DNA of 64,000 nt. Source: an uncultured Holophagaceae bacterium. GTDB lineage: Bacteria > Acidobacteriota > Holophagae > Holophagales > Holophagaceae. The notes under the pieces were generated by a model. It saw only the letters and a program-made list of their open reading frames with translations, was not told the DNA's origin and made no database searches. The stretch covers positions 1-64,000 of the forward strand of contig CAIPAY010000182.1 of assembly GCA_903863195.1 (NCBI GenBank), read 5' to 3'. Every line of letters begins with the position of its first letter. The first letter of the stretch is position 1. The position numbers and the translations under genes were made by a program. Shown one piece after another: positions 358-52,637 of the stretch.

Positions 358-1896
358 CTAAAGGGGGATATTCCCGTGCTTCTTGGGCGGCATGCTGTCG
401 CGCTTGGTCTCCAGGAAGGCCAGGGCCTTCACCAGCTTCATGCGGGTCTCGCGGGGGAGGATGACCTCGTCCACGAAGCCGAACTCGGCGGCGATGTAAG
501 GATTGGCGAACTTCTCGTTGTAGTCGGCCACCAGCTCCGCCTTCTTGACGGCGGGATCCGGCGCGCTGGCAATGGCCTTGCCGTGGAGGACGTTCATGGC
601 GCCTTCGGCGCCCATGACGGCGATCTCGGCCGTGGGGTATGCGAAGTTGAAGTCCGTCCGGATGTGCTTGCTGGCCATGACGCAGTAGGCTCCGCCGTAG
701 GCCTTGCGGGTGATGACGGTGATCTTGGGCACCGTGGCCTCGCAGAAGGCGAAGAGCAGCTTGGCCCCGTGGCGGATGATGCCGCCGTGCTCCTGGGTGA
801 CGCCCGGCAGGAAGCCCGGCACATCCTCGAAGGTGATGAGCGGGATGTTGAAGGCGTCGCAGAAGCGCACGAAGCGGGCGCCCTTCTCGCTGGAGGCGAT
901 GTCCAGCACGCCGGCGTAGAAGGCCGGCTGATTGGCGACGATGCCGATGCTGCGGCCCTCGATGCGGGCGAAGCCCACCACCAGGTTGGGCGCGAAGGCT
1001 TCGTGCACCTCGAAGAAGTGGGCGTCGTCCACCACGCCGCGGATGATGTCGCGGATGTCGTAGGGCTTGCTGGGATCGTCCGGCACGATCTTGTCGAGGT
1101 CGGGGTTCTCCAGGGGCATCTGGGCCTTGGAGGCCCGGCGGGGGGCCTCGCCCAGGTTGTTGCTGGGCAGGAAGGAGAGCAGCTCCCGGGTGTGGGCCAG
1201 GGCCGCCAGGTCGCTGGCGGTGACGAAGTGGGCTACGCCGCTCTTGGCGGAGTGCGTGTGGGCGCCGCCCAGCTCCTCCTTGGTGACCTCTTCATGGGTG
1301 ACGGCCTTGATGACGTCCGGGCCGGTCACGAACATGTAGCTGGTGCCCTTCACCATGGTGATGAAGTCGGTGATGGCGGGGCTGTAGACCGCGCCGCCGG
1401 CGCAGGGGCCCATGATGAGGCTGATCTGGGGGATCACGCCGCTGGCCAGGGTGTTGCGCAGGAAGATGTCCGCGTAGCCGCCCAGGGAGACCACGCCCTC
1501 CTGGATGCGGGCGCCGCCGCTGTCGTTGAGGCCGACGACCGGGCAGCCCACCTTCATGGCCAGGTCCATGACCTTGCAGATCTTCTTGGCGTAGGCCTCA
1601 CTGAGGGAGCCGCCGAACACGGTGAAGTCCTGGGCGAAGATGGCCACCGGGCGGCCGTCCACGCGGCCGAAGCCCGTGATCACGCCGTCGCCGGGGATCT
1701 TCTCCACGCCTTCGGTGCGGTGCACCATCAGGGCGTCCATCTCCTCGAAGGAGCCCTCGTCGAGGAAGGCCGCCACACGCTCGCGGGCCGTCAGCTTGCC
1801 ACCCTCGTGCTGCTTCTTGGTCCGGACCTCGCCGCCCCCGGCCAGGGCCTGGGCGTGCTTGGCTTTCAGTGTCTCGATCTTTTTCTCGAGCGTCAT
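358..1896 (-). CDS. Acyl-CoA carboxylase carboxyltransferase subunit (propionyl-CoA carboxylase beta / methylmalonyl-CoA decarboxylase alpha type)
   Basis: The 512-residue protein is the full length of the crotonase-fold carboxyltransferase that moves CO2 between biotin and an acyl-CoA, usually propionyl-CoA/methylmalonyl-CoA. Visible family motifs are the N-terminal '[19 protein letters not shown]', the first oxyanion-hole segment '[12 protein letters not shown]' and the second '[12 protein letters not shown]'. The start at 1896 has GGGAG upstream. No biotin carboxylase or biotin carrier gene lies beside it, so partner subunits must be elsewhere. Together with IcmF encoded at 48.9-52.3 kb it suggests branched-chain/propionyl-CoA metabolism. 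Sequence alone does not separate the carboxylase from the Na+-pumping decarboxylase role. Confidence 0.93.
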
Positions 1897-16238: not shown

Positions 16239-16322
16239 AAGGTCGCGACAGGTAACTTGTTCGACCCAAGAGGGCTGCACTCGGTTTAGACACCATGCGC
16301 TATCCTCGTCATGGAGGTTGCC

Positions 16323-16670
16323 GTGCCCCTGGATGCCCCGACCCCCCTCTACACGGGGGAGCGACTGCGAGACCTGATCCTCTGCTACGCGGGGCCCTGG
16401 GCCTTCGTGCCCTACATCCGGAACCGGGAGGACAGCGAGCTGCTCTGGCATGCGCGGCAGGGCGTGATCCTGGCCTTCGCCGAGTGCGTGGTGGGCTTGG
16501 CCATCGTCATCACCGGGCTGTTCCCGATCTTCGGCTGGGTCTTCCTGCGCTTCCTGCTGCCGCTCTGGCTGCTCTGGTGCCTGGGCATGTCCGTGACCAG
16601 CATCCTGCAGGCCTCCAAGGGCAAGCGGCACCGGATCCCGGTCCTGCACCAGTTCGTCGAGTATCTCTGA
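16323..16670 (+). CDS. Small membrane protein (DUF4870/Tic20-like)
   Basis: 115 residues starting at a GTG preceded by GGAGG with 5-base spacing; the ORF-track ATG 12 bases upstream overlaps that ribosome-binding site. Sequence features are a cytoplasmic N-terminus ('YTGERLRDLILCYAGPWAFVPYI'), 'NREDSELLWHARQGVIL', which resembles the His/Gln-containing DUF4870 segment, then two hydrophobic helices ('CVVGLAIVITGLFPIFGW', 'LRFLLPLWLLWCLGMSV') and a basic tail. DUF4870-like proteins are small membrane proteins of unknown role. It is followed by a REP-like palindrome. Confidence 0.7.
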   Translation: MPLDAPTPLYTGERLRDLILCYAGPWAFVPYIRNREDSELLWHARQGVILAFAECVVGLAIVITGLFPIFGWVFLRFLLPLWLLWCLGMSVTSILQASKGKRHRIPVLHQFVEYL

Positions 16671-16733
16671 TCCTTGGCGGGTCGCGGAGCAGGCGACTGA
16701 ATGTCGTCTGCGGAGCGGGGACCCGCCGGGATC
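16669..16733. repeat. REP-like palindromic element, copy 1
   Basis: The 65 bases between the convergent small membrane protein gene and queA form one long imperfect palindrome. The outer arms GGCGGGTC/GACCCGCC pair perfectly and are extended outward by GATCC/GGATC with mismatches. A GGG bulge lies on the 3' side, GCGGAGC faces GCGGAGC (GC pairs around a GGA/GGA internal loop), and a stem AGGCGAC/GTCGTCT closes on the loop TGAAT. The same architecture occurs at 52300-52353. It could also act as a bidirectional terminator, although no T-run follows. Confidence 0.6.
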
Positions 16734-16737
16734 AGAA

Positions 16738-17805
16738 TCAGGTAGGGGTGCTCTGGGCGTTCAGCACCAGCATCGCGTCGCCGTAGCTGAAGAACCGATA
16801 CTGCTGCCGCACGGCCTCGGCGTAGGCCGCCTGGGCCAGGTCCAGTCCCAGCAGCGCGGAAACCAGCACGAACAGGGTGCTCTCCGGCAGGTGGAAGTTG
16901 GTGAGCAGGTGGTCGGCGGTGCGCAGCCGGTAGCCGGGGGTGATGAAGAGGCGGGTGGCGCCCTGGCGCGCCAGGGTGCTGCCATCCCAGGCGCCTTCGA
17001 GGGTGCGCAGGGAGGTGGTGCCCACGCAGAGCACGGGACGGGACCGGTCCCGCAGCACCGGCTCCAGGGCCGCGGCGGTGGCCTCGGGCACCTCGAAGCG
17101 CTCCTCGTGCATGGCGTGGTCCTCGAGGCGGTCCGCGGTCATGGGGCGGAAGGTGCCGAGGCCCACGTGCAGGCGCACGGGCTGCCAGCTGCAGCCCTGC
17201 GCCCGCAGCGTGGCGATGATCTCCGGCGTGAAGTGCAGGCCGGCGGTGGGCGCCGCCACGGCCTCGCCCTCCCGGGCGGCGAAGACGGTCTGGTAGCGGG
17301 TCTCGTCTTCGTCTTCCGCCAGGTGGTCGATGTAGGGCGGCAGGGGCAGGCGGCCGATGCGGTCGATCTCGTCCCAGTCGAGGCCATGGCCGGACTCGAC
17401 CTGGACCACGCGGAGGCCCTCGGGCAGGGTATCCAGCACCGTGATCCGGGCCAGGTCGGCGCCGGTGACGGGATCCACCACGGTGGCCGCGGCTCCCGGC
17501 TTGAGGCGCGCCCCGGGCTTCACCAGGGCCTCGAAGCGGCCCGGACCCAGGCTCCGCAGCAGCAAGGCCTCCCCGGCGCCACCCCCGGCCCGCCGGAGGA
17601 AGAGCCGGGCGTGGCGGACGCGGACATCATTGGGCACGCAGAGGCTGCCGGCGGGGATCAGCCCGGGCAGGTCGCGGATGGTGCGGTGGGACCAGACGCC
17701 GGTGCGCGCATCCACCACCAGGAGGCGGGCGCCGTCCCGGTCCGGCGCGGGGTGCTGCGCGATGAGCTCCGGCGGGAGGTCGAAGTGGAAGTCGGAACGT
17801 CTCAT
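16738..17805 (-). CDS. queA: S-adenosylmethionine:tRNA ribosyltransferase-isomerase
   Basis: 355 residues, the expected length. QueA transfers and isomerises the ribosyl part of SAM onto preQ1 at the tRNA wobble base to give epoxyqueuosine. Conserved segments are visible in order: 'RSDFHFDLPPELIAQHP', 'PNDVRVRHARLF' (NDTRV in most), 'KPGARL', 'GRLPLPPYI', 'RYQTVFA', 'AAPTAGLHFTPE', 'HVGLGTFRPM', 'GTTSLRTLE', 'NFHLPESTLFVLVSA' and 'YRFFSYGDAML'. It starts 10 bases after the msbA stop, so it is probably co-transcribed with msbA. No other queuosine genes are in the window. Confidence 0.95.
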   Translation of the reverse strand: MRRSDFHFDLPPELIAQHPAPDRDGARLLVVDARTGVWSHRTIRDLPGLIPAGSLCVPNDVRVRHARLFLRRAGGGAGEALLLRSLGPGRFEALVKPGARLKPGAAATVVDPVTGADLARITVLDTLPEGLRVVQVESGHGLDWDEIDRIGRLPLPPYIDHLAEDEDETRYQTVFAAREGEAVAAPTAGLHFTPEIIATLRAQGCSWQPVRLHVGLGTFRPMTADRLEDHAMHEERFEVPEATAAALEPVLRDRSRPVLCVGTTSLRTLEGAWDGSTLARQGATRLFITPGYRLRTADHLLTNFHLPESTLFVLVSALLGLDLAQAAYAEAVRQQYRFFSYGDAMLVLNAQSTPT

Positions 17806-51800: not shown

Positions 51801-52294
51801 TGGGCCAGGCGAAGAACGAGAACCCGCAGCAGGGCGCCTTCCTCATCGAGCAGCTCACGGAGCTGGTGGAGGAGGCCGTGCTGGCCGAGTTCCGCCGCAT
51901 CAGCGACCGCGGCGGCGTGCTGGGCGCCATGGAGACCATGTATCAGCGCGGCAAGATCCAGGAAGAGTCCATGCACTACGAGCACCTCAAGCACAGCGGG
52001 GAGCTACCCATCGTCGGCGTGAACACCTTCCTGAATCCCCAGCCCCCGGAGCTGGGCGCGCCGGAGCTGATCCGCAGCACCGAGGCAGAGAAGCAGCAGC
52101 AGATCGACAACCTGGCAGCCTTCCACGCCCGGAACGCCGACGTGGCCCCCGCCGCCCTCCTGCGCCTCAAGGAAGTGGCCCGCGCCGGCGGCAACCTCTT
52201 CGAGGAGCTGCTGAACGCCGCCAAGGTCTGCAGCCTCGGCCAGATCAGCCAGGCCCTCTACGAAGTGGGCGGGCAGTACCGTAGGAATATGTAA
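48872..52294 (+). CDS. icmF: Fused isobutyryl-CoA mutase IcmF (B12 mutase with internal G-protein chaperone)
   Basis: 1140 residues, the IcmF layout. B12-binding domain ('[33 protein letters not shown]', 'IFGGGGGVI'); MeaI/ArgK-type GTPase ('[21 protein letters not shown]', '[21 protein letters not shown]', '[17 protein letters not shown]', 'NKADKRG'); mutase TIM barrel ('[38 protein letters not shown]', '[47 protein letters not shown]'). Where methylmalonyl-CoA mutase has Arg in 'KEFMVRNTY', this has Gln ('KEDQAQNTC', Q790), arguing against methylmalonyl-CoA as substrate. It isomerises isobutyryl-CoA and n-butyryl-CoA using adenosylcobalamin. Start has GGGGGG. Confidence 0.95.
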
Positions 52295-52299
52295 GCGAC

Positions 52300-52353
52300 C
52301 GTCGGGTGGCGAAGTGGAGGACTTGATGTCCTCCACGAAGCCGGGACCCGACG
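52300..52353. repeat. REP-like palindromic element, copy 2 (best preserved)
   Basis: CGTCGGGT/ACCCGACG outer stem, GGG bulge on the 3' side, GGC/GCC stem, a symmetric GAA facing GAA internal loop, GTGGAGGAC/GTCCTCCAC inner stem and loop TTGAT. Position is immediately after the icmF stop. It could act as a terminator, but the shared architecture with 16669-16733 suggests a dispersed element. Confidence 0.65.
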
Positions 52354-52369
52354 CGGAGCTTATGCCACG
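52327..52369. repeat. 43-bp near-identical direct repeat, unit A (partner at 52546-52588)
   Basis: TGTCCTCCACGAAGCC through GAGCTTATGCCACG recurs 219 bases downstream with 4 mismatches in 43 positions. It overlaps the right half of copy 2, so a full second element may have been truncated or rearranged. Confidence 0.75.
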
Positions 52370-52390
52370 AGACCGTCGGGGCGAAGCCCA

Positions 52391-52441
52391 GGCGGGTGGC
52401 TCGGGACGCTGCTGTGCAGCGTTCCAAGCCGGGCACCCGCC
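52391..52441. repeat. REP-like palindromic element, copy 3 (diverged)
   Basis: GGCGGGT/ACCCGCC outer stem, a GGGC bulge on the 3' side, GGCT/AGCC stem, single C/A mismatch, GGGACGCTG/CAGCGTTCC inner stem with one G-T pair and loop CTGTG. Same plan as copy 2 but the GRA/GRA internal loop is replaced by one mismatch. Confidence 0.5.
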
Positions 52442-52485
52442 GGGTTGAGCATCATCTTCGGTGCCGCCTGGGCTCTCCGCCGGAC

Positions 52486-52508: not shown

Positions 52509-52545
52509 TCCTGCGCGCCCTGCGGGCTTGCAGCGTCGGAGCCTC

Positions 52546-52588
52546 TGTCCTCCACGAAGCCGAAACCCGACGAGGAGCTTGTGCCACG
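52546..52588. repeat. 43-bp direct repeat, unit B
   Basis: Second copy of the sequence at 52327-52369 (4 mismatches). Here the left half of the palindrome is missing, so no hairpin forms. It ends 49 bases before the lytic transglycosylase start; the 52295-52637 interval has no gene. Confidence 0.75.
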
Positions 52589-52637
52589 CACGCCGCTCGG
52601 TGAACCTCAGCCCCCCAGGGCGTATCATGTACCCCGG

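Follow-up and report, generated by a model that had tools for sequence, protein, structure and literature searches.

The gap between two convergent genes in our window (the whole 64,000-nt stretch of DNA analysed here, from an uncultured Holophagaceae bacterium) is filled by a copy of a mobile, REP-like palindrome specific to the Holophagaceae, which probably acts as a hairpin in the 3′ UTR of the upstream gene, at its stop codon. The repeat is dispersed, extragenic and multi-copy, a REP in the broad sense, and it is restricted to this family. In one class of copies the stop codon of the preceding gene lies within the outermost helix, the opposite strand of this helix changes with the type of stop, and mismatches are biased toward those compatible with pairing on the sense strand.

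A hairpin between two convergent genes

A covariance model recognised the element at 16666-16741 on the + strand (55.7 bits, E 2.5e-12 in the window), between the ORF at 16311-16670, which is DUF4870-like by a weak match under the DUF4870 cut-off, and queA, encoded on the opposite strand and identified by PF02547. In the outermost helix, read from the sequence and recovered in the fold, TGATCC (16668-16673) pairs with GGATCA (16729-16734). The TGA stop of the upstream ORF (16668-16670) is part of the 5′ strand, and the 3′ strand complements this stop codon and the bases after it. Further inward there is an 8-bp GC stem (GGCGGGTC, 16676-16683, with GACCCGCC, 16720-16727; sequence and fold), a GGG bulge on the 3′ side (16717-16719; read from the sequence), a 2-bp GC step (GC/GC, 16684-16685 with 16715-16716, in the fold), a symmetric internal loop GGA/GGA (16686-16688 and 16712-16714; read from the sequence) and a variable 9-bp inner stem (GCAGGCGAC, 16689-16697, with GTCGTCTGC, 16703-16711) capped by the loop TGAAT (16698-16702). 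A tail, GAATCA (16735-16740), contains on the other strand the TGA stop of queA (16738-16740). The element thus fills the gap, since its outer helix holds one stop codon and its tail the other. Class III copies, described below, end in this tail as well, and this copy is a hybrid: its outer helix, with the stop codon, is class I-like, and its tail class III-like.

The initial annotation had limited the palindrome to the 65 bases at 16669-16733. The hairpin itself was confirmed, yet its extent had to be revised, because the outermost helix reaches 16668 and 16734 and includes the upstream stop. The 65-base span folds at -44.4 kcal/mol on the + strand (z -5.88; none of 200 shuffles was equally stable), versus -35.3 kcal/mol on the - strand. 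A second copy near 52300 had been described as sharing the plan of stem, GGG bulge, purine loop and 5-nt loop, and we found this plan in the sequence of both. The 52300 copy has GAA/GAA as internal loop and TTGAT as terminal loop, and folds at -39.0 kcal/mol on the + strand (z -5.74) and -36.4 on the - strand.

A descriptor scan of the window found the full plan in non-coding sequence only in the 16669 and 52300 copies, and the covariance model revealed two further, weaker copies beside the latter. The 52300 copy (52289-52370, + strand, 92.2 bits) is a class I copy following an icmF-like mutase gene; the stop TAA (52292-52294) lies inside a TAAGC/GCTTA helix (52292-52296 with 52358-52362), and the tail is TGCCACG. 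Directly 3′ of it is a related, diverged copy of what we call family B (52381-52455, + strand, 34.4 bits), and the same intergenic cluster holds a decayed copy (52509-52589, + strand, 23.4 bits, 3′ half GGAGCTTGTGCCACG). Family B is a second, related compound palindrome (GGCGAAGCCCAG-RCGGGTGGC...GCCGGG-ACCCGYC-GGGYTGAGCATC) that adjoins class I copies or takes their place at the same stop codon, and it is found at the icmF stop in four loci (L265, L273, L321, L327). The pattern GCCGGGACCCG alone was rejected as a family marker: among its 11 matches in the genome, the hairpin is present only at the 52300 copy.

The repeat family is restricted to the Holophagaceae

We aligned 16 copies under a hand-written structure (alignment A1) and derived from them the covariance model R1. 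In A1, 96.5% of cells are paired and 16 of the 25 pairs show two-sided changes. Its covariation score was 0.540, versus 0.181 ± 0.019 in shuffled alignments and at most 0.107 when the structure was slid, supporting the earlier suggestion that the folded form is under selection. R1 found at least 10 places in the genome of the window at E <= 0.1, about 7 of them convincing, and copies in at least 46 of 47 genomes of Geothrix, to which the window belongs, the richest of which has at least 26 at E <= 0.001. Matches extended to 10 of 30 Holophagaceae genomes outside Geothrix, and the other families of the class, represented by 16 genomes, had none. Of 297 genomes sampled across the phylum, the 23 that matched at E <= 1e-5 all belong to the family of the window, and the 270 other Acidobacteriota genomes sampled contained 0 copies. 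The initial annotation had proposed dispersed copies with a conserved fold, an idea to be abandoned if a covariance model found no further ones; the proposal holds, since R1 finds them in Geothrix and in other Holophagaceae genomes.

Other searches gave a similar picture. BLAST searches started from the 16669 copy and from a second copy matched further contigs of the window's genome as well as 11 of 21 related genomes, all from a single genus, several of them with copies in tandem ~72 bp apart. A strict pattern, leaving the inner stem and flanks unconstrained, matched 114 times, versus 0 for its reversed control. Rfam covariance models gave no match in the whole window at the gathering cut-off, nor at four loci at E up to 1, and a literature search of open papers returned none describing repeats of this kind in Geothrix.

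The element is about 72-80 nt long. The class I interior consists of a GACCG/GAGGAG internal loop, the GC stem with its 3′ GGG bulge, the purine 3x3 loop and the variable 9-bp stem. Among the 84 strict copies that could be parsed (out of 89 different ones) there are 39 different inner 5′ arms, and the stems of the strict copies stay complementary: 1107 cells are Watson-Crick, 23 G.U, 12 A.C and 34 other. The 3x3 loop is GNA/GNA in 58 of the 84, the bulge GGG or AGG in 75 of the 84, and the sense fold is more stable than the antisense one in 70 of the 89.

Copies differ in their ends, of which we distinguished three kinds: TRASC-GACCG ... GAGGAG-SYYA-TGCCAC in class I, TGNGC ... followed by the tail ATGCCAGTG in class II, found inside larger composite repeats, and TCSC-GACCG ... 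GGAG-SGAATCA in class III. At five loci (L127, L149, L160, L165, L181) the composite around class II contains repeated GGGCCGGGCTTGCC palindromes and occupies the space between two genes, often as two rounds in tandem. At one site orthologous to that of the 16666-16741 copy (L222, 2858 onward) only the outer parts are left (TGATCCCTAGCGGGGACCCGCCGGGATCA), the hairpin having been deleted internally, between GGG runs. We considered a start codon in the ATGCC of the 3′ end, a reading that was dropped because several copies have lost the ATG (GTTACGCC, CTTTGCC).

The stop codon is paired in the outer helix

In class I, the 5′ strand of the outer helix is TRASC, made up of the stop codon of the gene plus the two bases that follow, and it pairs with GSYYA at the 3′ end of the element. 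In 108 copies found by the GACCG...GGAG pattern only, with no use of the stop codon, the stop of a coding gene on the same strand lies exactly at -5 from GACCG in 48, while any other offset occurs at most 3 times. Next in frequency are -77 and -79, which mostly stem from the second copy of a tandem array. With its stop starting 5 nt before GACCG, class I lies within 15 nt of a stop codon. The 64 class I model matches located behind coding genes represent 23 gene families, HU, Fe-SOD, icmF and SDR among them.

Across the class I model matches, whose pairing counts are not independent since the copies are related, the partner strand follows the stop. TAA faces TTA in 41/41; TGA faces TCA in 21 copies, TTA in 6 (a G.U pair) and a rearranged end in 1; TAG faces CTA in 6 and TTA in 1 (again G.U). 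Seven of the eight exceptions are thus G.U wobbles, and TAA with TCA or CTA, which would give A.C, was never seen among these matches. Over all stems of the 65 unique class I copies we counted 33 G.U versus 10 A.C, with a p-value (6e-4) that is indicative only, given the kinship among copies and the use, in ranking part of the set, of a model with a higher score for G.U than for A.C. Read on the opposite strand, each G.U becomes an A.C; the 33:10 bias therefore favours the sense strand as the one that folds, and hence a fold as RNA.

Many copies of classes II and III have no stop codon in the helix and their outer helix is paired nonetheless, so the paired ends may serve the element itself. 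Recoding of the SECIS kind was rejected, since TAA and TAG are used besides TGA and the C-terminus of IcmF is unchanged with or without the element.

The icmF gene, upstream of the 52300 copy, allowed us to follow one orthologous locus. Its product ends in YRRNM-stop in 43/43 genomes; the element sits right at this stop in 18 of the 43 and is absent in 25, some of which carry remnants (TATGCCACG) or a family-B repeat instead. On the icmF gene tree, presence and absence require 13 changes, at least 7 of them forced by well-supported branches, and within the 18 bearers we count 5 changes of stop type and 6 of the partner. Two-sided Watson-Crick changes affect 13 of 24 pairs, and the paired fraction is 0.975 versus 0.842 when shuffled. 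For instance, an inner-stem pair differs between genome G048 and the window by a compensated change from A-T to G-C (L250 vs L251), and the IcmF fragment of G048 is identical to that of the window. The conserved C-terminus and the compensated changes indicate that the icmF stop codon is native and that the partner strand follows it. Gene conversion between copies could be an alternative source of matched ends, also at this locus.

The repeat is gained, lost and flanked by duplicated gene ends

We compared orthologues of the 16666-16741 locus from 46 records. The site is empty at L203, L211, L217, L223, L233 and L236, where the two genes overlap or nearly abut, and at L194, L195, L196, L208, L218 and L235 it holds the element, in copies of various types; at L212 the end of queA is duplicated beside a class III copy. 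In one Geothrix the 3′ end of the Fe-SOD gene is present as a tandem duplicate, in which one copy lacks the element (GGGAAGTAA-GGCGCGCGAG) and the other carries it (GGGAAGTAA-CCGACCG...GTTATGCC-GCGCGCGAG). Direct duplications of 18-121 nt from the 3′ end of the adjacent gene on the opposite strand flank 20 of 29 class III copies, the left copy being flush with the element in 19; the controls for these duplications include orthologous loci, which inflates the control scores. In class I, flanking duplications accompany 2-3 of 53 copies. Judging from the empty orthologous sites and the duplicated gene ends, the repeat is one that spreads, and the insertions we see are those that leave the gene end intact.

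Several arrangements were noted alongside. The last ~30 bases of the HU gene recur about 214-270 nt downstream, after a GC-rich repeat (CACCATCCGACCG...GAGCCA), and this duplicated end carries the element at seven loci (L101, L107, L111, L117, L123, L129, L158). At L104 (G023, 1050-1800, minus strand), tandem duplications of ~300 bp containing the Fe-SOD 3′ end and 3′ UTR occur with and without the element. Tandem element arrays with a ~72-bp period follow a single stop codon at L096, L141, L148, L183 and G007:C2:111300-111521.

PF01797, the Y1 transposase of REPs and IS200/IS605, is absent from the genome of the window and from 42 of 47 Geothrix genomes. IS200-like transposases occur in the other 5 of 47, with 5 to 7 copies in two of these. 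The ten Y1 loci that we inspected (L240-L249) showed no full element copy and transposases unlinked to the repeat, with one weak partial match to the middle hairpin (19.7 bits). We therefore rejected RAYT/IS200 as the mobiliser: PF01797 is found in 5/47 genomes and the repeat in at least 46/47, and the loci are unlinked. Mobilisation would instead be carried out in trans by a separate enzyme.

These data invite a reading in which the repeat is selfish DNA with no role in the mRNA, its palindrome maintained only for an enzyme that needs a single-stranded hairpin, and its position at stop codons reflecting target choice or the survival of harmless insertions. Empty sites and recurrent gain and loss at orthologous loci are what it would predict, as are the gene-end duplications flanking class III copies, the tandem arrays at ~72-bp spacing and the outer helices that are paired away from stop codons too. 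We consider this possible, though clearly less probable than a hairpin working in the 3′ UTR: against it speak a partner strand that tracks the stop type with almost only wobble exceptions, the excess of G.U over A.C and the joint change of stop and partner within the icmF locus, and no linked transposase was found.

In a further and, we think, rather unlikely reading, the stop codon would be the target of a mobile element. The 3′ end GSYYA would guide insertion by pairing with TRASC, just after the stop, leaving the protein unharmed; other versions of the element would insert close to the end of a gene and restore that end with a copy of the gene's 3′ end, some enzyme running the process. If true, stop-guided insertion would represent a novel way for a transposable element to choose its target.

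A putative 3′-UTR hairpin

The position and orientation of the element, its co-variation with stop type and the mismatch bias make an RNA hairpin with the stop codon inside it our favoured reading. We prefer a scenario in which palindromes spread much as REP/MITE-type elements do and come to rest at the 3′ ends of genes. There the fold would operate at the RNA level, within the 3′ UTR of the mRNA from the upstream gene. By reaching the stop codon, the hairpin might block 3′-to-5′ exonucleases and/or slow termination. An effect on mRNA 3′-end stability and/or termination is proposed here from the nearest described behaviour: E. coli REPs located <=15 nt from a stop codon stall ribosomes and lower translation, according to earlier work cited in PMC12306157, and MITEs and REPs can alter mRNA stability (PMC3733652).

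A strong GC hairpin at gene ends, filling a gap between convergent genes in the case of 16666-16741, could also be an intrinsic (Rho-independent) terminator, possibly a bidirectional one, and the initial annotation had suggested an assay of terminator activity in both orientations. The idea behind that assay lacks support in the sequence: in the 15 nt after the element, the longest T-run is <=3 in 65/65 unique class I copies. Moreover, in 18 of the 65 a separate canonical hairpin with a T-rich tail lies <=150 nt downstream, as after the HU gene, so that the element there would lie inside the 3′ UTR. The fold is also strand-asymmetric, in its purine loop, in its GGG bulge and in the greater stability of the sense strand noted above. 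We regard termination of this kind as improbable.

Comparison with known repeats

Least probable of all, and largely refuted for Geothrix, is a classical REP (GTAG/RAYT) or IS200/IS605-derived element moved by a Y1 tyrosine transposase: extragenic dispersal, tandem and mosaic arrangements, closeness to stop codons and the reported ability of GTAG REP termini to supply a TAG stop to flanking ORFs (PMC3733652) speak for it, but PF01797 is missing from most repeat-bearing genomes, the ten Y1 loci hold no full copy, neither a GTAG nor a CGTC tag is present, and the length is about twice that stated for REPs. Like REP/BIMEs, the Geothrix element is a short extragenic palindrome scattered close to the 3′ ends of genes; it forms mosaics and tandem arrays, comes in sub-families with alternative complementary stems, and has termini that can contain a stop codon (PMC3733652). 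Unlike them, it measures about 72-80 nt instead of 20-40 bp, the size by which REPs are defined (PMC3733652); it ends in TRASC-GACCG and GAGGAG-SYYA-TGCCAC instead of an unpaired GTAG-type tag; it has no linked Y1 transposase flanked by copies; it contains a bulge and a symmetric purine internal loop; and its outer helix pairs all three stop codons through matched partner changes. CGTC-tagged REPs are likewise palindromic and without a dedicated transposase, and come from 5 phyla, Acidobacteriota not among them (PMC3733652), whereas our element has no CGTC tag at either end.

MITEs (ERIC, YPAL, Correia) resemble it in being non-autonomous, foldable and located beside genes, but the element makes no fixed short target duplication: few class I copies have any, and those of class III vary in length. 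Integron attC sites are imperfect palindromes with bulged bases and a variable inner part, located just after a stop codon, and in all of this they are similar; they require RYYYAAC/GTTRRRY ends and cassette arrays. We rejected attC on its ends, since those of the element vary (TAAGC, TGACC, TAGCC, TCCC) and its contexts are unrelated chromosomal genes.

Stop-proximal E. coli REPs, as reported in PMC12306157, share a hairpin very near the stop codon, at the mRNA 3′ end; in Geothrix, by comparison, the stop codon occupies a fixed place inside the helix and changes in step with its partner. Neither extragenic palindromes nor REP termini supplying a TAG stop are new (PMC3733652). A family with native stops of all three kinds in its outer helix, each with a matching partner, is not among the known families that we compared. 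Geothrix thus harbours a spreading repeat without a known transposase, with gene 3′ ends duplicated around its insertions, and its matched and wobble stop/partner pairs form a natural series for testing stop accessibility and hairpin control of mRNA stability or termination. Repeats near stop codons are familiar; here the repeat takes in the stop itself, base-paired and co-varying, for three stops and in 23 gene families.
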